Below, piece by piece: positions 2,003 to 43,831 of a stretch of DNA of 43,831 nt. Position 1 is the first letter of the stretch, and each line of letters opens with the position of its first letter. The position numbers and the translations under genes are program-made. Location: the NCBI GenBank assembly GCA_016199065.1, contig JACQHK010000047.1:1-43831 (forward strand), written 5' to 3'. The notes beneath the pieces were generated by a model that had not been told where the DNA came from, did no database searches, and worked only from the letters and a program-made list of their open reading frames with translations. This stretch comes from Candidatus Microgenomates bacterium (GTDB lineage Bacteria; Patescibacteriota; Microgenomatia; JACPZF01).

Positions 2003-3052
2003 CTAGAACACCAGCCCAAACCCTAAAATCATTAATCCTATTCCTAAAACAGACATCAGAATAGTCGGATTGATAGAAGCCGCTGTTGGTGTTTGGGGAG
2101 TAATGGGTGCCTCCTGACAGGAAACATCACTTTGGCAACCATCTACCCCTGCTCCTTCTACAACCACACATTTTTTGTTATCGTCGCAGGATTTGTGGGT
2201 AAGACGGACAGTAACACAATCGTTATCTTGTGTACAACTGCTGTCACAAGGTTCATCGGAAGGTGAACATTCTTCCTCAACACATTTATTCCCTTCTTTG
2301 CAGGACTTATGTCTAAAGGCCACTTTGTTGGTAGGTGTAGGTGTTTGAGTAATCGATGGGGTTTGGGTAACAGTAACAGTCTCTGTTACGCTGGGAGTAA
2401 TCGTTAAAGTACCTGTTGGAGTGTTAGTGGGGGTATTGGTAATAGTCACCGTTCCTGTTGGTGTGTTTGTAGGAGTTTTTGTAGGAGTTATGGTTTGAGT
2501 TAAAGTACCGGTGGGTGTATTGGTAGGTGTTAATGTTCCGGTAGGAGTGGGTGTTTTGGTTTTAGTTGGTGTGGGAGTCTCACAACCGGAACAATTAAAA
2601 GCGATTTGTCCTCCCCAGCCCATTCCGGCTATAGTACAGTCGTACTGCACCACGGAACAGGAAGGAATTGAAGTAGTCATGGAACAGAAATAGTCTCCGT
2701 CTTTTCCCTGGCGGTCATTGGCAGTACACGATCCTGCCTTAGTACAAGTAGCTGTTTTACCACAGGTATCCATGGTGCCTACTAACTGTTTGGCACGCTC
2801 TGAGCCTGGTTCTGCCTGATCTCTTAGACATTCTTCAAGGCTGTCATATCGATGTGTAAGTAAATCACCTTGAAAAGGAGTTCCAGGCTTGGTATCGGAA
2901 CAGCTCGTACTGACGGTCTCTGCAGCCTTGCTCGGTACCGGCGTAACTTGTTTGGTTTTTTGCAATTGGCTGGCCGTAAAAACTGAAATCAGAGCCAGTA
3001 CTGCAGTGGCGACAAAAACGATTAGCGGTAAATAATTCTTAAATTTACTCAT
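2003..3052 (-). CDS. Cys-rich surface protein with TPT-rich stalk and C-terminal TM segment
   Basis: N-terminal signal/TM, many Cys, long [17 protein letters not shown] tract, C-terminal hydrophobic segment. Confidence 0.7.
2335..2580 (-). repeat. Degenerate Pro/Thr-coding low-complexity tandem repeats
   Basis: Repeated GTnGGnGT-type units on + strand, encoding TPTNTPTGT repeats of the 2003..3052 protein. Confidence 0.75.
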
Positions 3053-3854: not shown

Positions 3855-5174
3855 TTATTTTTTAAACGATGCTGAATAAAAAATTGTTCCGCTTACGATA
3901 ATTAAAGCCAAAGAAAACAATAACAAGGTAATTGTGGAAGTAAAGTCTCCGCTTACCGGAATAGGTGATGGCGACGCAGTAATCTCCGGTTCCAAAGTAG
4001 GCGTAGGAGTAAAGGTTGCTGACGGAGTGGCATTTTCGGTGACCGAAGTACCGCTGGCCAAAACTAAAAATGTATGGGAAACCGCTTGCTCCTTACCGCT
4101 CTCGTCTTTTACTTTCATCGTTACTGTATGCTCGCCCGGTGCCAAATCTGCCGGAGGCGTCCAATTCCATTTTCCATTCTCACCCACCACCACGCTGGCG
4201 GAATATTTATTTTCTGATTCAACCGTAATTTGTATCACCTGGCCGGGTTGTCCGGTTCCTTCAAAAGTCGGTCTCATGTCAGAAAGAGTTGCTTCATCCG
4301 AAGGTATAGTAATCTTGGGGCTGGTAGTAGCTTCAGTCGTTTTCTCGTTACCAAAAGTCTCGTCGCGTTGATCTTCTTGTGCTAAAACTTTTGTCGGTGT
4401 CGGGGTAGATGTTGGCTCCTGTGCGAGTTGATCCTCTTTAGTAAAATCAAAATTGCCCCCGATCGTAATGTTGGGAACCGGAGTTTCGTTACCGGTAAGA
4501 GTCTTTGCCTGTGCCACGCCTTCTTTTGCGCCCTGGACAAAAATATTGATCGGATCACCTTGGCTGTTAAAACTAAGTAGACTCTTTAAATCGGGAGTAC
4601 GTGCCAGATTTAAAGAAACCAGCCAGCTTCCGGAAGATTTGGTTAACGAAGAAAGTAAAGAGGAATTATTTACCGTAACATAAACTATGCTGTTTTCCAG
4701 TGGAACACCGGCTCTTTTTTCCACTACGCCGTAGGCAGGAATCGTTACCACGTTGTCCTGTGATTTAACCGGTGTAATCAGTGTATACTTTGGGTCAGAA
4801 TACTCCTTACTTCCGGAAATTATCTTAAAAGTATAATTAGTCGAAGGCTTCAAAAACCTTAGACTTACGTGATGAACAAAAAATTTATCAGTCGCAGGCG
4901 TTGCTCCTTGTACTCGATCATCCAGAACTGGCTGGCTAAACCCCTGGCCGGCTGATTGATACACTACGGCACCGGAAACCGCTTCGTCGGTTATCCAGGA
5001 AACAGAAAAGGAAGAATCTGTCAGGTTGCTTATTTTTACTTCTTTGGGTTCCGCGGTAACACTGGCTTTAGTAAATAAAGTCTGTGCAAAATTTGTCGCA
5101 AAGGCGGTCACAGTTAAACCGACCAAAAGAACAACCACGGCAATAAGTGTAGGGATTTTAAATTCTTTCCTCAT
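3855..5174 (-). CDS. Secreted FN3/Ig-like surface protein with C-terminal TM anchor
   Basis: Signal/TM; EPKEVKISNLTDSSFSVSWITDEAVSGAVVY (FN3-like); PTFEGTGQPGQVIQITVES...APGEHTVTMKVKDESG (bacterial Ig-like); TPTPT linker; terminal hydrophobic helix. Confidence 0.7.
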   Translation of the reverse strand: MRKEFKIPTLIAVVVLLVGLTVTAFATNFAQTLFTKASVTAEPKEVKISNLTDSSFSVSWITDEAVSGAVVYQSAGQGFSQPVLDDRVQGATPATDKFFVHHVSLRFLKPSTNYTFKIISGSKEYSDPKYTLITPVKSQDNVVTIPAYGVVEKRAGVPLENSIVYVTVNNSSLLSSLTKSSGSWLVSLNLARTPDLKSLLSFNSQGDPINIFVQGAKEGVAQAKTLTGNETPVPNITIGGNFDFTKEDQLAQEPTSTPTPTKVLAQEDQRDETFGNEKTTEATTSPKITIPSDEATLSDMRPTFEGTGQPGQVIQITVESENKYSASVVVGENGKWNWTPPADLAPGEHTVTMKVKDESGKEQAVSHTFLVLASGTSVTENATPSATFTPTPTLEPEITASPSPIPVSGDFTSTITLLLFSLALIIVSGTIFYSASFKK

Positions 5175-25990: not shown

Positions 25991-28900
25991 CTATCTCACC
26001 TCAAACCATCCTCCGTCGGAGTGGCCGGAGACATCGGGAGTGTACATTTGATAGGCAGAGGCTGGCGGATGATGATAGCGGCCGGGAGTTGTGGCGCGGA
26101 CTCTGTAGGTAAATTCATAAACTCCCGCAGGCAAATAGTCTGCAAATAAAGACGTTCGATCGTCGTGATATTCTTTGTGTTCAAAATACAAATTCCGGTC
26201 GCCTTTTTCTTTCAATTTGGGTGACTTGGCCGACAAAACACTGGAAGTTTTGAGACTTTCATTGACTGATTCCAAACCGGCCGGCAGGATATCTTCAATC
26301 ACCACAAAATGCCGTTCTTCCGGAGCAACGATAATCAACCTAACCCAGGCTTCGGAATTTTCAGGAAGCGACCCGCTCGGCAAAATATTACCTTTACTAT
26401 CAACCAGTTCTCTTACCACCACCATTCCTTGCTCCAACGGTTTGATTTCAGTAAACGGCAGGAAATATTTTAAGTTGACGTTGTAATACAGATTTCCTTC
26501 TCCGCTTTTGGCAAAAGTCAGAGAGTTTTCTGTGCCGATTTTTAATTGCGTAATACCCAGTGTCAAATCCTCCACACGCAACAAATCTTCTTTAACAAAT
26601 TTTCCTTCTTTGATTGTTTTTCCGTTTAACGAAAATCGATAATCTTCATTTAATTTTTCGTCGCCTTTTAACAACAGTTGCGTTGCAATAGTTTTAATTA
26701 CTGCTGCAGTATCTCTCGTTGATGCCCAATGACCATCACGTCTGGTAGTCATTAAATAACGAATCACTTCCGAAATTAAGGGATTGTTTTTGTTGTAAGA
26801 CATAATTGATTCTAAGACCGCAGCGGTGGCTGTGGTATTGCTACCCATGTAATAACCATAGTTTGTTTGCTGTTCCTCCCAGTGAGTAGTGGTCGCAGTT
26901 TTTTTGGCTAAAGAAATTAATTCGTCATTAAGTTTTTTACCTCTCCCAGAAGCTGTAGGAATTGCACTCATTGCCACTGCCAGGTTAGCCCGTGATTCTA
27001 AACTCATCTCAAAACGTCTGGTATAAAGATTTGAAGTATATGATGCCAAATTTACCCCGCTGTCTTTTAAGACATAAAGAATAAATGCTTGGGTGTTTAA
27101 TGAAGGCGGCGTGACTGAAGAAAGATGCTGCACTAAATAATCCCTGGCTTTAGTCAAAGTCTGATCAGCGACGCTGAACTTGTCTTTTTTAGCTTCAGAA
27201 AGACCAAGGTAAGCATAGGCTGTTACAAACGGGTCGCTTTGCAGTTCCGGCCACCAACCCCAACCGCCATCGGCATGCTGCTGACTGTTTAATCTTTGTA
27301 CGCCATCGCTAATAATCATCGTTAATTCTTTGGCGCTGATTAAACCGCTTTTTTCAATACCGGCTTTCGTAAAAACCCGGTTGGCAAAAACCGCCGGCAG
27401 GAAACGGCTGGTAATTTGTTCAACGCAGTTATAGGGGTAGTCAATTAAATAAGTTAAGGCATTAATACTGGCTGCTCCTAAAGAAGGAGAAAGTGAAATT
27501 GCCGCTGACCCCTGAGTTTTATCAACATCGTTTGGCAAAAGAATTTTTTCTTCTTTATTACCCTGGGAATTTCCGGCTGTGGCAACCGTCTCGGGAACCG
27601 AGTAGGATTTGACCGGCAATTTAATTTCTACAACGTCGCGGGTCACACCATCGCTTCCCGCAACTGAAATTTTTATTTTTGCTTCTTTTACGTCCTGTGC
27701 TTGAGTCTTCCAGGTTAATTTTGCCTGTGCGCCGTCAGCTAAAACTTGCTGTTTGGTGTTTGGTTCGTTGATCTTTATACCTTCAGTCTCGATTTTTACT
27801 GTCGTGTTTTGCTCTTCACCGCTGGTGTTGGCCACAATGGCTCCCAACTGGGCTTCGTCACCAACGGATAAAAATCTCGGTAAGAATGGTCTGATTAATA
27901 AATCCCTGCTGACAATCACTTCAGAAACTGCCGATCCAACCGCTGTGTCTTTGGAATTGGCAATGGCTCCCAGTCTCCAGGTTGTCAAATTGTCCGGCAG
28001 TTTAATTTGTACTGAGATTTTGCCGTTTTGATCAGTCGTTAAATTAGGATTCCAATAGGTGGTATCAGGGAAATTGACGCGGGAAGTATCATTTCCTCCG
28101 CCTTTTTGGTTATGAACATAAACGTCCTTGGCAAAATACGTGTGGTATTTTTCCGTTTCTAAATTGTATACGTCAAAGTCTTTTCCAAAAACATATTCCT
28201 TGGAAGTCACTTTTACTGGTTGATTATTTTTGTCTAATAAATAATCGCCTACCTGAATTTCTCCGGCAGTTTTCCACTCTCCGTTAACCAGCATCCTATG
28301 AACGGCAGTCACTTCGATTTCTCCGTTTAATATTAAATAGTCGTTGACCAAGTGTTTAAAAGTCTTGATAACTTTGGCTTCTACAAGTTTTGAGGAATTT
28401 TCCGATTCTCTGGTCAGAATCACGTCTCCTGTTTTAACGTCTTTAATAGATTTATAACTGTAATCTTTCATTAAGATCGGTGTTTCTGCAGTAAAACACC
28501 CGCCGCTGCCGCCCTTGGCTCCCAGGTTTAAATTGGCATTAATGCGGTCTAAAGAAATTGTTAAGAGTTGTGCCGTATCTACGTCTAAATTACGCGGCTG
28601 ATAAAAAGTTTTGTAAATATCGGCTAGTTCTATTTGTGCCAAATCCCAAACCGCCTTATCAACCAAACCAACTGCTAACTGGGTAGAAACCGGATGGCCT
28701 AATAGGTCCTTGGTTTGAATGGTAGCCTTTAAGGTTTCTTTAGGTTTATAGCGTTTTTTGTCAGTGGTGATAGCCACCTCAACTTGCTGTTTCTTGTCTG
28801 TTACTTTGATTTCGGTGTATCCCATCTTAAACTCCGGCGGTTTTTTAAGGTCGTTACCGCCCCTGACTAAAACTGCACTGATAAACGCATTGGGAGCAAA

Positions 28901-31900
28901 CTTGGGAGGAATAGCAATCGGGAAATTATTTGACGTGTCTGACGTATCAACCACCTGATAATCAAGAACATTCCCCCGCTCTGCAGTTAATAAAGTCTTT
29001 GCTGAATCAGTCGCAAAGGGCGTAGCCACGAAAACGGAAACTGTCTCGCCTACCAAATAATCTCTTTTGTCGGTAACCAGAACTATCCGGTCGTTGTTTT
29101 CCCTGGCCGTAGAAAATCCGTAGCCTGAGACCCACAGAAAACTACCACTAACGTTTTGTTTACCGTTCTTGTCAGAAACTCGGGCAACGACTTTAACAGT
29201 TCCCCCCTCAACAGGAGTAAAAGAGGCCTTTGCATAACCTAATCTATCAGTCGTAACTCTGGTGCTGATTAAAAGAGTATCTGTGGGTTTGGCAACGTAA
29301 TAAAATTCTCCGTCGTCAGTATTTTGTTCACGAACCGTTTCCCAGGTACGTTTGTAAAAGGAAACTTCAACAGGGGTCTCGGGAACTTCCAGACCTTTAA
29401 GATCAACCGTGACAATTTCTACCTGCACTTCTTTACCGCTTTGGTTAGCATACGAAACCGGATGAATACCGGCATAAATTTCTCCTTTATGAACTGTAAA
29501 ATCTGTCGAGGCGGCAATTGACTGATTACTGATGTCATTAACCACTGCTTCAACCCTCATTTTTTGACTGGTTTTATATTTGGCAATATCCAAAGGCAGA
29601 GAAAGCTCTAAATCACCTTTGGTGTTAGTAATACCCTTACCCTGAGTTACTTCTGTTCCGGAATAATAACTGGAACCAGAATAGTACCACCAGGGCCTGG
29701 ACCAATAAGAATCCGGGTCGCCAAATTCATATCGCCAGTCTTTGTCCCATCTAAAAGAATAATCCTCTGTTTGTAAGGTCCAGGTCACCGGAGCTTCAGT
29801 CACTGGTGCACCAAAATAATAAGAGGCGTTAATTGCGGCTTGGGCAATTTCACCTTGGGTATAGGCTGGTTTATTGGTAGTGACGGAAACTGCTAATTCA
29901 GGTTTACGATATTCTTCGACCTGAAACTGTTGAATAGATCCGTTACCTTTAAAATCCACACCCAATTCGTAATTACCCAAGCTGGCATTTTTGCTTAAAA
30001 CAAACTCACTCCAGAAAGAACCAAAGGAGTCGATCGGCAGGACCTGGGTAAAAATTGCCCGGTTTTGCGCATCGGTAATTTTTACGGTAACTTTTTCTCC
30101 GGGTTCCAGGTTTTGGTAAGCTCCGTCATTATCTTTTTTAATGACACCTTTAAAATAAACTTTTTGACCCGGACGGTAAATCGGGCGGTCCAATGTCAGA
30201 TAACTCTTGTAATTTTTTTCGGCATAATAATCGTTTCGTTCATTCGGATCATAATAAGAAGGTAATCCGAAATCATAACGGTTTATACCTTCGCTCCAGG
30301 CACTGGCAGCAACAACCGCATCATCATTGTTTTTACCAAACACAAAGAGATCGTTTTTCTGCAACAGATTTACTTCTTTTTGCCAAACACCATCCTGGTT
30401 AGAAACTCCCTCGGCTAATTTATTGTTGAACATATCTGCCAGCTCCAGTTTCATTCCGGGAATAACCTGCGCCGTTGACTGGTTAACAGACCAGGTAAAA
30501 ATCTGGTTATTGCTTTTTTTTACAGTTAAGGCTGATTTACTGACAATCATAACCATATTGTCATGAGCACCCTGGGGAATTTTTACCTCTAAAAAGTAAA
30601 ATCCCGCGGGAAGATTTTGGCTGTTTTGATCGGTTACTTTAGTTACCACCTGCACCGGAGTATTTAGATCGGCTTCGTAATTTTCGCTCCAGGAACGTAC
30701 TTTGGTTAATTTAGAAGTGTCGTAGTCCTGCCAATTGGCACAACCTACGTTTTGTCTTCCCTGACAATCATTACCATATCTTCTCCGATAAAGTTCCAAA
30801 AGATTTTCCCTGCTTAACCGATACAGCGAATAATCGACACGGTTAGTATTTACCACTTGTGTCACCACCCTGGGAATAATTTCCTGATTAAAAGAGGCAA
30901 AATAAGTTCCTGAGGGATAAATGCTGACGGCCGGTTTGTAGGGAGCGGTGGTAAAGGAAAAAGTGTAGGGCTTTCCGAGCGCTACTCCATATTGATCTTT
31001 AACGTTAGCACCGATTGTCACTTGGTATTCTTTCGAGGGTCCGAAATACGAACTTACGTAAAGTGAATTTTGGTTATTGTAGCTCGAAAAAGAAAAGTAA
31101 GGCTTGGTCGCAGGCTTGGGAATAATTGTCACATTATCGGCAAAGGAGTCCTCATCCATGGGAGTTTTAAAATAAACCTGCAGATTATAAAGTTCACCCG
31201 CAGTTGTTTTGGCTTTATTCTTAGGCTCTGTAGAGATTACTCCGGGAAAATCGGTGGTGGTAAAATTCCAATAATAATCATCTTCCAGACCATTCGGCCC
31301 GTCTGTGCTTTGGGCACCGTTTTTAACTACTGCTTCGTAATTTTCCAATCTGGCCAAAGGAGTTAACGGATAAAAACCCACCACCTTACCATTTACGACT
31401 ACTTTTCCGGGTATTTCCGTTTTGTTTTTATCCAAAACTTTAAAGGAATTAACCAAAGAGGAATACTCCATGTTCTGGGTAAAAAAGGCCGCAATTGAAG
31501 CAACTGGCGAAGCAAATCTTTCTCCTAAAGACGGTGAAACGTCTTCTACTCGGGGACGTGCACTGGAAAATTGCCACTGATAATTTTGTTTTAAGACACC
31601 TCCGTCTTGTGATTTAAGTCCGGAAAAAACAGTAACCTGGTAGGTCGTGGCTTTCTTAAATGGCAGGCTCGGCCGAAATTGATAAGAAGTAGTTCCCAAC
31701 CAACGTCCTTGACCAACGAGCGGCGGATTAATTTCGAAAGCCGGTTGTTTAACAGCACTATTGGTAGCTGTTGTTAAGGGTATCATCGGCCTATCGAAAA
31801 CCACCGTCACCGGAGTTAAATCTTCCAAGGCCTCGTTTTGCGGAGCTGCCAGAATAACCTTTGGCTCTCCGAGAGTCGAAAAATCAATGTTTTTAAAACC

Positions 31901-32653
31901 CACCATGGGTATAAAAAACTTCGAAAGAACCAGACCGTCAAATCCTACCTGGTAATGATTATCTCTTTGTAGAGGCTCTTGCGGAGTAAAAATTAGTTTC
32001 TGCTCACCCTCCCAGGAAAAACTGCCCGGAATCGGTGGTTTAATCCGAAAACTTTTTTCCGCTGTTTGTTTAATAACTTCTTTGTCAAAAATAACTTCGA
32101 TTTTGGTTTCTAAGGGATTTTCCAGGCTATTTTGACCGGGAAAACTCGTTAACACAACGGGTGGGTGAAAAAACGGACCGAACTTGAGCAATAAAAAAAT
32201 TATGAGAACGAGAAACAGAGGTAACCGGGCGATTCGCCATTTTTCTCCGGGAGTAGACGTTTGAAATTTGTTCCCCCAGGAAGATATTTTTTGGGTAAAA
32301 ACGTTTAAAAAGTAAAAAAATTTATCAATGACCAGGATTAAGTATTTTTTAACAAAGTCAGCAATCACCGACAAAAACTGTGGCTTTGTAAGAACTACAA
32401 CTATCACTGTACCGATAGCCAAAATGCCCACAATTAAGGCCTGCATGGTTAAAACCGGTCTTATCACCAACTGCTGTTGGATAAAGGTGTAAGCTTTCCA
32501 CAAAACGGTAATGCCGATTAAAACTATGGCCACCCAAAAGAAAATTTGATTTCGTAAGCGCCGGATTTTACTCAAAAGAGAAGCGGGATAAGATGACGAA
32601 GGAGGTAAGTCCCCGGCAGAAGGATTATTATTTAAGGAATCGTTTTCTGGCAC
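25991..32653 (-). CDS. Membrane-anchored bacterial alpha-2-macroglobulin-like protein (thioester CVEQ) with internal Hint domain
   Basis: 2220 aa; N-terminal TM helices; macroglobulin Ig-like repeats; LDRPIYRPGQKVYFKG; FPDTTYWNPNLTTDQNGKISVQIKLPDNLTTWRL; YPYNCVEQITSRFLP; DGGWGWWPELQSDPFVTAYAYLGL. Confidence 0.95.
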   Translation of the reverse strand: MPENDSLNNNPSAGDLPPSSSYPASLLSKIRRLRNQIFFWVAIVLIGITVLWKAYTFIQQQLVIRPVLTMQALIVGILAIGTVIVVVLTKPQFLSVIADFVKKYLILVIDKFFYFLNVFTQKISSWGNKFQTSTPGEKWRIARLPLFLVLIIFLLLKFGPFFHPPVVLTSFPGQNSLENPLETKIEVIFDKEVIKQTAEKSFRIKPPIPGSFSWEGEQKLIFTPQEPLQRDNHYQVGFDGLVLSKFFIPMVGFKNIDFSTLGEPKVILAAPQNEALEDLTPVTVVFDRPMIPLTTATNSAVKQPAFEINPPLVGQGRWLGTTSYQFRPSLPFKKATTYQVTVFSGLKSQDGGVLKQNYQWQFSSARPRVEDVSPSLGERFASPVASIAAFFTQNMEYSSLVNSFKVLDKNKTEIPGKVVVNGKVVGFYPLTPLARLENYEAVVKNGAQSTDGPNGLEDDYYWNFTTTDFPGVISTEPKNKAKTTAGELYNLQVYFKTPMDEDSFADNVTIIPKPATKPYFSFSSYNNQNSLYVSSYFGPSKEYQVTIGANVKDQYGVALGKPYTFSFTTAPYKPAVSIYPSGTYFASFNQEIIPRVVTQVVNTNRVDYSLYRLSRENLLELYRRRYGNDCQGRQNVGCANWQDYDTSKLTKVRSWSENYEADLNTPVQVVTKVTDQNSQNLPAGFYFLEVKIPQGAHDNMVMIVSKSALTVKKSNNQIFTWSVNQSTAQVIPGMKLELADMFNNKLAEGVSNQDGVWQKEVNLLQKNDLFVFGKNNDDAVVAASAWSEGINRYDFGLPSYYDPNERNDYYAEKNYKSYLTLDRPIYRPGQKVYFKGVIKKDNDGAYQNLEPGEKVTVKITDAQNRAIFTQVLPIDSFGSFWSEFVLSKNASLGNYELGVDFKGNGSIQQFQVEEYRKPELAVSVTTNKPAYTQGEIAQAAINASYYFGAPVTEAPVTWTLQTEDYSFRWDKDWRYEFGDPDSYWSRPWWYYSGSSYYSGTEVTQGKGITNTKGDLELSLPLDIAKYKTSQKMRVEAVVNDISNQSIAASTDFTVHKGEIYAGIHPVSYANQSGKEVQVEIVTVDLKGLEVPETPVEVSFYKRTWETVREQNTDDGEFYYVAKPTDTLLISTRVTTDRLGYAKASFTPVEGGTVKVVARVSDKNGKQNVSGSFLWVSGYGFSTARENNDRIVLVTDKRDYLVGETVSVFVATPFATDSAKTLLTAERGNVLDYQVVDTSDTSNNFPIAIPPKFAPNAFISAVLVRGGNDLKKPPEFKMGYTEIKVTDKKQQVEVAITTDKKRYKPKETLKATIQTKDLLGHPVSTQLAVGLVDKAVWDLAQIELADIYKTFYQPRNLDVDTAQLLTISLDRINANLNLGAKGGSGGCFTAETPILMKDYSYKSIKDVKTGDVILTRESENSSKLVEAKVIKTFKHLVNDYLILNGEIEVTAVHRMLVNGEWKTAGEIQVGDYLLDKNNQPVKVTSKEYVFGKDFDVYNLETEKYHTYFAKDVYVHNQKGGGNDTSRVNFPDTTYWNPNLTTDQNGKISVQIKLPDNLTTWRLGAIANSKDTAVGSAVSEVIVSRDLLIRPFLPRFLSVGDEAQLGAIVANTSGEEQNTTVKIETEGIKINEPNTKQQVLADGAQAKLTWKTQAQDVKEAKIKISVAGSDGVTRDVVEIKLPVKSYSVPETVATAGNSQGNKEEKILLPNDVDKTQGSAAISLSPSLGAASINALTYLIDYPYNCVEQITSRFLPAVFANRVFTKAGIEKSGLISAKELTMIISDGVQRLNSQQHADGGWGWWPELQSDPFVTAYAYLGLSEAKKDKFSVADQTLTKARDYLVQHLSSVTPPSLNTQAFILYVLKDSGVNLASYTSNLYTRRFEMSLESRANLAVAMSAIPTASGRGKKLNDELISLAKKTATTTHWEEQQTNYGYYMGSNTTATAAVLESIMSYNKNNPLISEVIRYLMTTRRDGHWASTRDTAAVIKTIATQLLLKGDEKLNEDYRFSLNGKTIKEGKFVKEDLLRVEDLTLGITQLKIGTENSLTFAKSGEGNLYYNVNLKYFLPFTEIKPLEQGMVVVRELVDSKGNILPSGSLPENSEAWVRLIIVAPEERHFVVIEDILPAGLESVNESLKTSSVLSAKSPKLKEKGDRNLYFEHKEYHDDRTSLFADYLPAGVYEFTYRVRATTPGRYHHPPASAYQMYTPDVSGHSDGGWFEVR
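27416..27427 (-). other. Predicted thioester motif CVEQ of A2M (Cys1743)
   Basis: TGC GTT GAA CAA in frame within YPYNCVEQ. Confidence 0.88.
28109..28498 (-). other. Hint (intein / bacterial intein-like) domain within A2M, residues Cys1386-Asn1515
   Basis: CFTAETPILMKD...SIKDVKTGDVIL...EVTAVHRMLVNGEWKTAGEIQVGDYLL...DVYNLETEKYHTYFAKDVYVHN; flanked by GGSGG and QKGGGND. Confidence 0.9.
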
Positions 32654-39773: not shown

Positions 39774-39860
39774 GGAGAGGTCGCATAGCGGACTAGTGCG
39801 CGCGCTTGGAGAGCGCGTGTGGCTGCAAGGCTACCGCGGGTTCGAATCCCGCCCTCTCCG
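39774..39860 (+). tRNA. tRNA-Ser (anticodon GGA)
   Basis: Acceptor GGAGAGG/CCTCTCC; anticodon arm CGCGC-TTGGAGA-GCGCG; long variable arm. Confidence 0.93.
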
Positions 39861-39951
39861 CAGCGTAAGAACGTTAATTTTGTTTCACAAAATTTTACGT
39901 TCAACGCTACTGTCGCGTTTAAATTGGAAAGTAATTTATAACGTGATGCTG
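39861..39951 (+). repeat. ~91-bp structured repeat, copy 1, immediately 3' of tRNA-Ser(GGA)
   Basis: cagcgtaagaacgttaattttgtttcacaaaattttacgttcaacgct...; about 80/91 identical by eye to the reverse complement of 43528..43618. Confidence 0.9.
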
Positions 39952-39988
39952 AAGAGGATAAGGCAGCCAATCTACTTGGAGATAGTCT

Positions 39989-40546
39989 TTAGCTCGTTTT
40001 TTCCAGAGGTACTTTGCGGGAAAGCCAATCGGCTGCATTATCAATCCAGGTCATAACCGGTTTTTCTCTAAAAGAAAGGTGTTTTCCTAACTCCGCTTTA
40101 ATCTTTTCTTTTTCTGTTTCGGGAATCAAAATAATTAATCTTCCGGGAAATTTCAATTTAGTATTAACATTAAGAATCGAGGCCCCCCAATGGGAAGAAA
40201 AATAAAAGTCCTTCAGCTCTGTCCAAAGATAGCTTTTACTTCCGGTGTTTATTCCCTCGGTGGTGATTTCATGTTCTACTTCTTCGGGAGGAACGGTGGC
40301 TAAAACGTAACTTACAAACATCAAGGCTAAAATAACTCCGATTAAAAGAAATTCTTTTATAAAAAGAAGAATTACTCCGATCAAAAAAACGATGGCGGCT
40401 ATGGTAGTAAAATAATCCCTACTTCTTCTTTTAAAAGGTCTCGAAGGGCTTCTCCAGGTAAGCAAGGTTTTGATCTCTTTGGGTTCCTGAGAAACAGCCG
40501 TTGGGCGAAACTCAGCAACCGAAGGTTTTTTGTTTAATCCAAACAT
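39989..40546 (-). CDS. Hypothetical two-TM membrane protein
   Basis: Two adjacent TM segments (YFTTIAAIVFLIGVILLFIKEFLLIGVILALMFVSYVLA) plus a PH-like soluble region. Confidence 0.6.
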   Translation of the reverse strand: MFGLNKKPSVAEFRPTAVSQEPKEIKTLLTWRSPSRPFKRRSRDYFTTIAAIVFLIGVILLFIKEFLLIGVILALMFVSYVLATVPPEEVEHEITTEGINTGSKSYLWTELKDFYFSSHWGASILNVNTKLKFPGRLIILIPETEKEKIKAELGKHLSFREKPVMTWIDNAADWLSRKVPLEKTS

Positions 40547-40603
40547 TAATTTTTCCTTTCATCTAACAGAATATATCAAACTGAAAAATCTGTAAATCAG
40601 TTG

Positions 40604-41782
40604 TTATTTTTTCTTAACTGTTTTTGAAACATGACTGGTCTTTAAAGAGGCCAAAAAACCCCCCAATCCCCAGGGAAGAGTAAAAAACGAAATTAAAAAA
40701 CCCAGAACCGGAATCCAAGTCAATAAATAATAAAGCACCGATCCCAGAACTAAAGACCAGGCAAGCGATTCGCTTTTTTCTCTTGCAAACTGTTCCAAAA
40801 GTTTTTTGCCTAAGAAACAAAAGACGTAAATTCGACCGGCAAAAAGACAAAGGAGAAAAAGCAAAATGGCGAAAATCGCAAAGGGTATACCGATAATGGT
40901 TAAAATACTAAATACTATGGCGATGGGCACGACCAAAATGACTAAAACACCCAGAAAAAAAGTAGCTAGGGGATTTTGTATCATCTTTTCTTGACCGATT
41001 CTAATTTTTCCCGACAAGAAATAAAGAAGAACAAGACCAAAGACTAACGAAAGGAGAAAAGAAATGAGACGTGATGTGTCCTGAAGGCGATTTGTAGACA
41101 CAAACTTTGTCGGTTGCTGATCGGTTTCGGCAAAAGGTTTTGACCAGGTTACTTTTCCGGCAATTTTTGTTTGATCAGAAATTTCGGCTTCTTTTTCGCT
41201 TTCGTAAGAAAAATTTCCTAGAATTCTTGCCTTGTCACCAACCCTAACAGATTGTGCCTTTATCTCAACATCCTGATTGGCACTTCCGTTAAAAAATAAG
41301 TCCTGCGCCCATCCGGAAACTTTTTTACCCAACAATCCGGAGATTTCTGCTTGTTGTACGCCGAAAAATGATTCACCTTCAACCGCAGAAGTGTTATATA
41401 AAATAAGTCTTTGGGCAAAAACCGTTAAATTCCTGGTTACCTGCTGAAAAATCTCTACATCCTGAGCAACGGCCCGGACACTGCCGCTTACACTTCCCTG
41501 AACTTTTAAGTCTTGAGCCAAACATAAAATATCACCATTAACATTGCCTCTAACGATAACGTTTTGACCTGCACAAAAAAGATCTCCGTTAACGTTAGAG
41601 TCAATAGTGAGTGACTGTCCGGTGATTACTAAACTCTCGTTGACTGCTTCGTTGGCAGAAACATCTACTACGTCACCCTTTTTCACTTCTACTGCAAAAG
41701 AATAAGTTGTGCTAACTAAAAAAAGCAAAACAAAAATTAAGGAAGTAAGAAAGAGAATCACAATATTTTTGTTCATAGCCAT
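40604..41782 (-). CDS. Membrane protein with bactofilin/polymer-forming-like beta-helical ectodomain
   Basis: Repeats SLTIDSNVNGDLFCAGQNVIVRGNVNGDILCLAQDLKVQGSVSGSVRAVAQDVEI; C-terminal TM helices. Confidence 0.65.
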   Translation of the reverse strand: MAMNKNIVILFLTSLIFVLLFLVSTTYSFAVEVKKGDVVDVSANEAVNESLVITGQSLTIDSNVNGDLFCAGQNVIVRGNVNGDILCLAQDLKVQGSVSGSVRAVAQDVEIFQQVTRNLTVFAQRLILYNTSAVEGESFFGVQQAEISGLLGKKVSGWAQDLFFNGSANQDVEIKAQSVRVGDKARILGNFSYESEKEAEISDQTKIAGKVTWSKPFAETDQQPTKFVSTNRLQDTSRLISFLLSLVFGLVLLYFLSGKIRIGQEKMIQNPLATFFLGVLVILVVPIAIVFSILTIIGIPFAIFAILLFLLCLFAGRIYVFCFLGKKLLEQFAREKSESLAWSLVLGSVLYYLLTWIPVLGFLISFFTLPWGLGGFLASLKTSHVSKTVKKK

Positions 41783-41809
41783 AAATATTATACATCCCCA
41801 CCCTAGCCT

Positions 41810-43477
41810 CTATTTAACACTAGCTATTAAATATGAATATGGTTCAAGCGTTAGGGATAAACTTCCTTTTTGGGCAGTATAGAAACGACTGCTTAACAAA
41901 TCCGTCACTGTACCCAAAAGTTTATCCCCCATAACTGTACCACTCCAACTGGTTTCTGACAGATTAACTACCACTATTATTTTTTCTTTGTCTGTACTTC
42001 TTAAGTAAGAGATTACTTGGGAAGGATTATTTGACGAATACCAAATTGTTGTTCCTGAATTTAAGGCAGGATGACTTTTACGAAGGGAAATTAGTTGTTT
42101 ATAGATGGAAGTATTTTCCGGATGAGGAGGCCTCGACCAGGAGATGTATCGTTGATTGGCAATACTGGTAGGATTTAAATCTCCTATCTCCTGACCGTTA
42201 AAAATAAAAGGTAAACCATCGAGTGTAAAATTTATGGCCATGGCCGCCAGCATAGCTTTGTTTCTCCCAGACAGCGCGGCCGCGCGCGGATGCTGGTCGT
42301 GATTGTCGATGGCCCGATAGAGATTGAGGTCCGGTAAGGGTTTTCCCTTTCCCTGTTCAGGTCGTTCCCAGGCAAGTTGAATAACGTTTGCTTCACGCCT
42401 GTTATTTATTACTGCTCTTAACGCCTGCATGTACGTTACTCCATACAAGGCATCAAACCCGTAAACGCTCTGATATTTTTCTCCGTTGCTTCCGGCACCA
42501 GTATAAGGAGATCCGTATTCCTCCAGCTTAGAGGAGGTCTCTGCTACCATTAACCATGCCGGCTTCATTTTTTTTAATTCATTATTAAGAGATGCCCAAA
42601 AAGAAAGGGGTACATCTATTGCCACATCTGATCGACACCCGTCAATGCCAACAGTCTTTGCCCAATATTTTGTCATTTCCATCATGTAGTTTTGAACCTG
42701 GGGATTAGAGTAATCAAGCACCGAAAATCCATAGCGATTTTTTACAATTTGCCCACCTTTTCGCAAATAGAAGTCGGGGTGGCTGTTGACTAAAACGTTG
42801 TTCGGATCAGTACTGTGATAAACACAGTCCATGATAACCTGCAAACCTAAACCGTGCGCCGTGTCTATGTAATTTTTTAAAGCTGATATGCGCGCATCGC
42901 GTGTTCCTGCATCATCTTTCGGATTGGTAAAACCAGCGTAACCTGGATTAACATCATAGAAATCTTTTATTCCATACGGAGAACCAATTGTCGTAAGGCG
43001 TCCGAACGGATGAACTGGTGAAAGTTGAATAGTAGTAATTCCCATGTCAGCTAACTTCGGTAGGTGATTTGCGGCGTTGACAAAGACGTTGGAACTTGGT
43101 TGTTGGTTCTGGGAATTTTGCGCGTAGTAGTTTAGCCAGACTTGGTAAATGACTAAATTTCCGGTATTTACTTTTCTTTGCGCAGGAAAACTGTTTGAAA
43201 CCGGGTATCCCTGGGTAGGTTCATTGTTAACAGAGTCAACGCTCGAACCATTGCCTGTTGTTGGTCGCGGGGACTGACATTTGTCACCAACTTTTCCTAT
43301 TACATTAAGTAATTTACATTTCAAGCCAGAAATATCCAGAGTCCGACTTAACGATACTTTGTTCTGAAAAACCGCATAGACTGGAGCATCGAAGGAGGAA
43401 GAGAAAACCTGCCTGATTATAAGTGAAGCAAGAATGATTATCCCCGATATTAATAAAATCTTAGTTAACCTGCTCAT
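41810..43477 (-). CDS. Secreted GH13-family alpha-amylase-like glycoside hydrolase
   Basis: IQLSPVHPFG, YGIKDFYDVNPGY, LGLQVIMDCVYHSTD, VGIDGCRSDVA, WLMVAETSS, RAIDNHDQHPR. Confidence 0.85.
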   Translation of the reverse strand: MSRLTKILLISGIIILASLIIRQVFSSSFDAPVYAVFQNKVSLSRTLDISGLKCKLLNVIGKVGDKCQSPRPTTGNGSSVDSVNNEPTQGYPVSNSFPAQRKVNTGNLVIYQVWLNYYAQNSQNQQPSSNVFVNAANHLPKLADMGITTIQLSPVHPFGRLTTIGSPYGIKDFYDVNPGYAGFTNPKDDAGTRDARISALKNYIDTAHGLGLQVIMDCVYHSTDPNNVLVNSHPDFYLRKGGQIVKNRYGFSVLDYSNPQVQNYMMEMTKYWAKTVGIDGCRSDVAIDVPLSFWASLNNELKKMKPAWLMVAETSSKLEEYGSPYTGAGSNGEKYQSVYGFDALYGVTYMQALRAVINNRREANVIQLAWERPEQGKGKPLPDLNLYRAIDNHDQHPRAAALSGRNKAMLAAMAINFTLDGLPFIFNGQEIGDLNPTSIANQRYISWSRPPHPENTSIYKQLISLRKSHPALNSGTTIWYSSNNPSQVISYLRSTDKEKIIVVVNLSETSWSGTVMGDKLLGTVTDLLSSRFYTAQKGSLSLTLEPYSYLIASVK

Positions 43478-43527
43478 GTCTATATTATTGGAATGTCTTT
43501 CAAAAGTAGATTAGCCACCTTACCGTA

Positions 43528-43618
43528 CAGTGTCGCGTAACAAATTACTTCCTAATTTAAACGCGACAGCAGTGTTGAACGTAAAATTTTGTGAAACAAA
43601 ATTAACGTTCTTGTGCTG
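43528..43618 (-). repeat. ~91-bp structured repeat, copy 2, immediately 3' of tRNA-Ser(GCT)
   Basis: Reverse complement cagcacaagaacgttaattttgtttcacaaaattttacgttcaacactgctgtcgcg... matches copy 1. Confidence 0.9.
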
Positions 43619-43705
43619 CGGAGGGTGTGGGAGTCGAACCCACCGACCGCTTTAAGACGGTCACGGTTTAGCAAACCGCTCCTTTAGCCGCTCAGGCTAC
43701 CCTCC
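43619..43705 (-). tRNA. tRNA-Ser (anticodon GCT)
   Basis: Reverse complement GGAGGGTAGCCTGAGCGGCTAAAGGAGCGGT-TTGCTAA-ACCGT...GGGTTCGACTCCCACACCCTCCG. Confidence 0.92.
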
Positions 43706-43764: not shown

Positions 43765-43831
43765 GGAGGGTTCGCCTAACGGCATGGCACTAGTCTTGAA
43801 AACTAGCGGGAGAAATCCCTTACAGGTTCGA
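43765..43831 (+). tRNA. tRNA-Ser (anticodon TGA), truncated by window end
   Basis: GGAGGGTTCGCCTAACGGCATGGCACTAGT-CTTGAAA-ACTAGCGGGAG...GGTTCGA. Confidence 0.85.

Follow-up and report, generated by a model that had tools for sequence, protein, structure and literature searches.

Two hairpin elements at facing tRNA-Ser genes

The 43,831-nt contig JACQHK010000047.1 of a Candidatus Microgenomates bacterium, referred to below as the window, carries two tRNA-Ser genes that face each other, and each of them is followed by a copy of a short double-hairpin element. Between the copies lie three genes, all on one strand, encoding a DUF5673-like protein (below the cut-off), a bactofilin and a GH13 amylase (41810-43477). 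The original prediction, made for this window from its letters only, had described the copies as inverted repeats with two potential hairpins each, matching at about 80 of 91 bases and starting at the base after the tRNA, and had offered several readings: a mobile element targeting tRNA ends, a terminator or tRNA-processing unit, or a substrate for inversion of the GH13/bactofilin segment. The data presented below favor the first. Most probably, a small, non-autonomous mobile element of Patescibacteria, which inserts at tRNA gene ends, has three copies in this genome, two of which are the repeats seen here; its usual insertion point is the position immediately 3' of the discriminator base.

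When 39861-39951 (+) was aligned with 43618-43528 (-), exactly 80 of the 91 positions matched, and the tRNA calls of ARAGORN and Rfam agreed with the prediction in placing the start of each copy one base past the tRNA-Ser discriminator. A repeat search extended the similarity to 114 nt at 87% identity, the T-arm/acceptor end of the tRNA included; a 19-nt block past the element (TAAGGYRGCYAATCTACTT) is also common to both copies, with at least 14 of its 19 bases matching. Folded as single strands of DNA, the two copies yielded z-scores of -6.1 and -7.3, and none of 200 shuffled sequences folded as well; the two hairpins per copy were borne out, with refined boundaries. In copy 1 the linker region is the reverse complement of C72-G73 of the host tRNA, with a T bulged. 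In copy 2 the outer stem of hairpin 1 is partly decayed, and the right end is AC in place of GC. Both copies are canonical for the family geometry described below and have in addition an inner T/TT hairpin nested inside hairpin 1; comparable nesting was seen at locus L243, and within hairpin 2 at L177 and L185. Downstream of hairpin 2 the two copies continue with GCTGAAGAGG and ACTGTACGGT, and there is no T-run in either. Rfam was searched as well; within the two copies, past the tRNA, nothing matched even at E-values of up to 5.

Structure and covariation

The element is 70-90 bases long and is built of two imperfect hairpins in inverted orientation with a one-base joint. With x denoting tRNA position 72 and D position 73 (the discriminator), the consensus at tRNA 3' ends reads x-D / C-N-N-CGT-AA-stem-loop-stem-A-ACG-N'-N'-G / D'-T-x' in its left half and NNN-CGT-T-TAAATT..loop..AATTTA-TT-ACG-NNN / x-D in its right half. 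Hairpin 1 opens at the discriminator (D-C-N-N-CGT), passes through an AA/A internal loop and a variable stem-loop, and closes with ACG-N'-N'-G-D'. The linker is a single base, usually T, and hairpin 2 consists of four paired bases, CGT, a T/TT internal loop, a variable stem-loop, ACG and four bases, after which D-C recurs. The CGT/ACG core and the asymmetric internal loop (AA/A or T/TT) are fixed, and the distal stem and loop vary with compensation. For anatomy and flank counts, 79 distinct tRNA-3'-linked sequences were parsed with a fixed geometry; 66 of these have an inverted hairpin pair with a core-to-core gap of exactly 9 nt. Covariance analysis, a check suggested along with the original prediction, was carried out on 40 aligned elements: 97.8% of the cells were paired and 146 cells had changed on both sides. 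Neither value was reached by any of 500 shuffles, and alignments that had been slid remained below 47% paired.

Placement at tRNA ends and target-matched bases

The covariance model identified 115 elements in named records, 88 of which abut the end of a tRNA or tmRNA gene (79 at the 3' end and nine at the 5' end). Offsets at the 3' end are almost only -1 and -3, depending on whether ARAGORN counts C or CCA. Hosts are tRNAs for Ser, Arg, Ala, Asp, Leu, Lys and others, as well as one tmRNA, with Ser being the commonest (33/79). Raw hairpins show the same preference: 91 of 135 lie within 60 nt of a tRNA, whereas positions drawn at random from those loci do so in 7.5% of cases.

The bases of the element that adjoin the tRNA are matched to the target. 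D pairs with D' in 68 of the 79 parsed elements (shuffle mean about 37) and is identical to the base to the right of hairpin 2 in 66 (shuffle mean about 36), while bases 72-73-74 are repeated to the right of the element in 57 of 68 cases, where 29 were expected by shuffling. The right-hand repeat follows the unusual T72 of a tRNA-Trp (L148) and a tRNA-Arg(UCU) (L188); a tRNA-Pro with G72 (L239) has GAC on both sides once a shift of the linker is allowed for, and at three sites that have no tRNA (L186, L210 and L247) T precedes D on both sides. The middle of the element thus represents the target dinucleotide in reverse complement, plus one bulged base. Two genomes each have one hairpin-1 core at two hosts whose discriminators differ (tmRNA and Ser in one, Asp and Met in the other), and D' and the right-hand base switch to fit the discriminator of each host. 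This switching could result from templating at insertion or from rapid selection for pairing. In our literature searches no description of a tRNA-end double-hairpin element was encountered, and a target-complementary middle was reported for no known relative; the target-matched middle is a testable clue to the insertion reaction.

Empty sites in related genomes

In a genus of Shapirobacteria an element lies between tRNA-Arg(UCU) and tRNA-Arg(UCG) in one of eight species, and AC is repeated on either side of it; in the other seven congeners a spacer of roughly 5-16 bp lies between the two genes. In a second genus tRNA-Arg(CCU) is followed by an element in one species, and the site is empty in all six congeneric loci read. 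Gain is a simpler reading of these sites than repeated precise loss. In a genome of the same family as the source genome (G001), the block of a NUDIX gene, tRNA-Arg(CCG) and tRNA-Ser(GGA) is also present: there, two hairpins follow tRNA-Arg(CCG) and none follow tRNA-Ser(GGA), which is the opposite of the arrangement in the window. The hairpins have in common the core CGT-T-TAAATT...AATTTA-TT-ACG with its asymmetric internal loop. Because sites are empty in congeners and a short direct repeat is found at the insertion, we regard the family as a mobile palindromic element with tRNA-end specificity, in agreement with the first of the readings originally offered.

Distribution

A genome-wide search with the 91-mer, also suggested at the outset, returned only the two window copies with good scores. 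With the covariance model three copies were found in the source genome, all at tRNA 3' ends: those of Ser(GGA), Ser(GCT) and, on contig C49, Leu(UAG). This genome was read in stretches except for the last 7.7 kb of contig C62, and the covariance-model search covered that part too. The element is thus present at 3 of about 30 tRNA genes, a count that excludes the possibility, raised with the original prediction, of a conserved terminator after every tRNA. In the same genome many element-free tRNA genes continue with discriminator-C-A and not discriminator-C-C-A, and CCA-encoding genes are intermixed with them.

A pattern scan of 374 genomes of the class detected the core hairpin in 55, the reversed control being present in far fewer, and the matches often formed inverted pairs with the constant 9-nt core-to-core gap. 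The covariance model raised the number to 85 genomes (23%), with 1-13 matches per genome when both strands are counted, so that about a quarter of the sampled genomes of this candidate-phylum class carry an element that no Rfam family covers. When 84,980 species genomes of bacteria and archaea were scanned, at least 114 stretches were obtained, a sample and not a census. Among the matches listed nearly all were from Patescibacteria, comprising Gottesman-, Levy-, Shapiro-, Davies-, Roizman-, Woese-, Beckwith- and Chisholmbacteria on one side and Portnoy-, Nealson-, Staskawicz-, Zambryski- and Wildermuthbacteria on the other; the element was also found in Parcubacteria-type records. The inner hairpin of the window itself, a variant of hairpin 1, had no match in an exact-pattern scan of the same 84,980 genomes. 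Several copies are located at contig ends; elements therefore probably break assemblies and are under-counted.

The match in a Rhodobacteraceae metagenome-assembled genome (L203) proved to be a true element; it lies at a contig end and may reflect a binning error. None of the pattern matches in Neptuniibacter, Orbaceae, Sodalis and Frischella was confirmed by the covariance model at its cut-off, and they are regarded as chance or as another family; the repeated hairpin CGTTTAAATTTCTTAATTTATTACG of genome G315 sits within a different repeat. A phage carrier was rejected, as viral contigs gave one weak covariance-model match among five pattern matches.

Alternative explanations

An alternative to transposition is that gene conversion or the duplication of tRNA 3' regions accounts for most of the spread, with copies riding on recombination between tRNA-Ser genes. 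The predominance of Ser tRNAs among the hosts would be consistent with this, as would a short stretch past the element that matches between the Ser copies in the window and G305. However, many isoacceptors and a tmRNA serve as hosts, the flanks are unrelated, and D' and the right-hand bases are fitted to each new host; moreover, the empty sites at Arg tRNAs are clean and are accompanied by a short direct repeat. As a general account we therefore consider this unlikely. The second Ser copy in the source genome may nevertheless have spread by recombination between tRNA-Ser 3' regions, because some of the sequence past the element matches too.

A less probable scenario is that the hairpins are a functional tRNA trailer, an RNA element kept by selection that defines or protects the 3' ends of certain pre-tRNAs and stacks on the acceptor stem, using the discriminator in its first pair. 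Helix 1 does begin exactly at position 73 and covaries with it, placement is mostly 3', and the stems are kept over long distances. Such a trailer would, however, be confined to three tRNA genes in the source genome and to 85 of the 374 genomes, it would be missing at the same tRNA in congeners, and the same rules hold at 5' ends and at non-tRNA sites; in addition, the right-hand direct repeat of the target has no role in it. A retained RNA role in tRNA maturation could also coexist with mobility.

Neither of the two remaining readings of the original prediction was supported. Site-specific inversion of the DUF5673-bactofilin-GH13 segment is highly improbable in spite of the inverted copies that enclose three same-strand genes. 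Two convergent tRNA genes with a copy each already account for the inverted orientation. In other genomes most elements occur singly, at tRNA ends, and do not have to enclose any gene; a second orientation was not encountered, and the GH13 gene, on which a comparison of orientations would depend, is lacking in both family-mate genomes. The absence of this gene from the two mates, both of which are incomplete, suggests a recent gain or loss of the enclosed segment. Equally improbable is an intrinsic terminator or ordinary conserved trailer as the primary nature of the repeats: stable hairpins do stand immediately 3' of tRNAs, yet neither hairpin is followed by a T-run, most tRNAs lack the element, only some genomes have it, and it also occupies 5' and non-tRNA sites.

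Several points weigh against a mobile element. No movement was observed and no dedicated enzyme was found. The D-D' match alone could stem from selection for pairing, and the strong conservation of the stems could reflect a retained RNA role in tRNA 3'-end maturation. Of the 115 elements, 27 lie away from recognised tRNA ends; several of these are preceded by an apparent tRNA 3' fragment ending in ...CTCC. Finally, Y1 transposases are modestly enriched, being present in 67 of 85 element-bearing genomes versus 180 of 289 others (counted by eye), and genome G041 has a dozen element matches (both strands) and no Y1 hit.

Possible mechanism and candidate enzymes

Once inserted, the mobile element would be flanked by direct repeats of the target dinucleotide, which corresponds to tRNA positions 72 and 73, and the reverse complement of the target between the hairpins would render the middle able to pair with either side. 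The enzyme, acting in trans, would recognise the open end of the acceptor stem in folded, single-stranded DNA of either strand. The most likely mechanism, to which we nevertheless give somewhat less than even weight, starts with a nick at the foot of the acceptor stem, made by an enzyme of the HUH/Y1 type or by another one that recognises hairpins; the hairpins would then be joined, or copied in through two template switches, and this would produce direct, inverted and direct copies of the target. More doubtful is the proposal that the element lands on the open end of the folded tRNA gene, on either strand, and that three copies of the target dinucleotide (direct, inverted between the hairpins, and direct again) arise from the insertion itself; a strand switch at each hairpin during copying would have this outcome. 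If true, this would be a mechanism of transposition not described so far, employed by gene-less mobile DNA across a phylum. With tRNA gene ends as the landing site, the 3' trailer of essential single-copy tRNAs is altered; the tRNA remains usable, since body and discriminator are left intact and the CCA end can be attached once processing is complete.

With regard to the enzyme, a Y1 transposase as a required partner was rejected owing to the weak association (p = 0.02 in an earlier pattern-based comparison) and to the genome without Y1 mentioned above. When the Y1 loci listed were compared by eye with the hairpins listed, none was seen to be flanked by hairpins. An autonomous transposon with the same ends was not noticed, though no systematic search around every copy was made. 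Small GIY-YIG nuclease genes, confirmed by Pfam, begin directly after elements at many tRNA-Ser genes (Table 1). They are nearly absent beside elements at non-Ser tRNAs, and such a nuclease was not retained as the partner; it remains a lead.

Comparison with known systems

Repetitive extragenic palindromes (REPs) and their paired form, REPINs, are short bacterial palindromes of GTAG and CGTC families, the CGTC REPs being without a dedicated transposase, according to the available part of one account (PMC3733652). The present element similarly consists of short imperfect palindromes in inverted pairs, is intergenic, and is probably non-autonomous. It differs in that no GTAG tag was found at the palindrome foot in the 40-sequence alignment, where the foot is x-D-C-N-N-CGT, and in its numbers, three copies in the source genome and 1-13 matches per genome versus tens to hundreds of copies. 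It is also tied to tRNA ends, with a target-matched interior and a geometry that is constant across a phylum, whereas the same part of that account places REPs inside some tRNA-modification genes and none at tRNA gene ends (PMC3733652). Terminal inverted repeats (CGTAA...TTACG), a direct repeat of 2-3 bases and empty sites are features of miniature inverted-repeat transposable elements. The element is of this palindromic miniature kind, set apart by its tRNA-end specificity and its target-matched middle.

Similar architectures were described in mitochondrial DNA, in the form of double-hairpin elements of Allomyces and repetitive hairpin elements of sponges (PMC2800124), and yeast mitochondrial GC clusters are accompanied by short direct repeats at insertion, AG or ACT (PMC4478555). 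In the portions of these papers available to us, the mitochondrial elements likewise comprise two joined hairpins or merged palindromes, are sporadic at orthologous sites, have short direct repeats and no known enzyme; unlike the element of Patescibacteria, they display there no tRNA-end specificity and no reported reverse complement of the target between the hairpins. The likeness to the fungal and sponge double-hairpin elements is one of architecture, and common ancestry is unlikely at such a distance.

Integrative elements that target tRNA genes and the T4 Seg-type GIY-YIG homing genes also use tRNA genes as landing sites; unlike them, the element described here measures 70-90 bp and contains no gene.

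Members of the IS200/IS605 group insert without target duplication, and their imperfect hairpins are accompanied by guide sequences that pair with the flanking DNA. Hairpins with unpaired bases and an interior complementary to the flanking site are reminiscent of derivatives of this group; in contrast, x-D(-C) is directly repeated on both sides of our element, and a companion Y1 gene is not consistently present.

Features and additional observations

Table 1. Positions of the two element copies, their parts and host genes in the window, and of related features in other loci
Feature	Position	Strand	Remarks
tRNA-Ser(GGA), host gene of copy 1	39774..39860	+	discriminator G at 39860; ARAGORN, Rfam
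Element copy 1, discriminator G to right-hand GC repeat	39860..39949	+	covariance model R1, 61.2 bits, E=5e-12
Copy 1, hairpin 1	39860..39910	+	outer stem GCAGCGT/ACGCTAC, AA/A internal loop
Copy 1, inner T/TT-loop hairpin nested in hairpin 1	39869-39902	+	the AACGTT...ACGTT hairpin of the original prediction
Copy 1, linker T	39911	+	one base, between C (D') and G (x')
Copy 1, hairpin 2 (GTCGCGTTTAAATT...AATTTATAACGTGAT)	39912..39947	+	family T/TT loop slightly changed in this copy
Copy 1, right-hand GC	39948..39949	+	direct repeat of tRNA G73-C74
tRNA-Ser(GCT), host gene of copy 2	43619..43705	-	discriminator G at 43619; ARAGORN, Rfam
Element copy 2	43530..43619	-	covariance model R1, 49.6 bits, E=4.2e-9
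Copy 2, hairpin 1	43569..43619	-	covariance model, folding
Copy 2, hairpin 2 (GTCGCGTTTAAATTAGGAAGTAATTTGTTACGCGAC)	43532..43567	-	covariance model, folding
GIY-YIG genes after element	L097:1581-1856; L178:2157-2408; L187:7175-7402; L228:4307-4564; others		at Ser tRNAs (one Asp)
GTCATTGCGAGGAAATCACG-hairpin-CGTGACGACGTGGCAATC repeat	L128; L129 (genome G315); L143; L233; L249; L250

A separate dispersed repeat, GTCATTGCGAGGAAATCACG-hairpin-CGTGACGACGTGGCAATC, bears the same hairpin core away from tRNAs. At L151 two elements (2972-3052 and 4439-4519) lie 1.5 kb apart and are preceded by 40 bp of identical sequence that is not tRNA-related; larger units that include the element can therefore duplicate.

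In the window itself, the contig terminates within a tRNA-Ser-like gene (43765-43831), and tRNA-Ser(UGA) was not found in the genome stretches read; the contig end at 43831 may be an assembly break at another copy of the element. Farther upstream, the minus strand of the window contains an open reading frame of 2220 codons (25991-32653).

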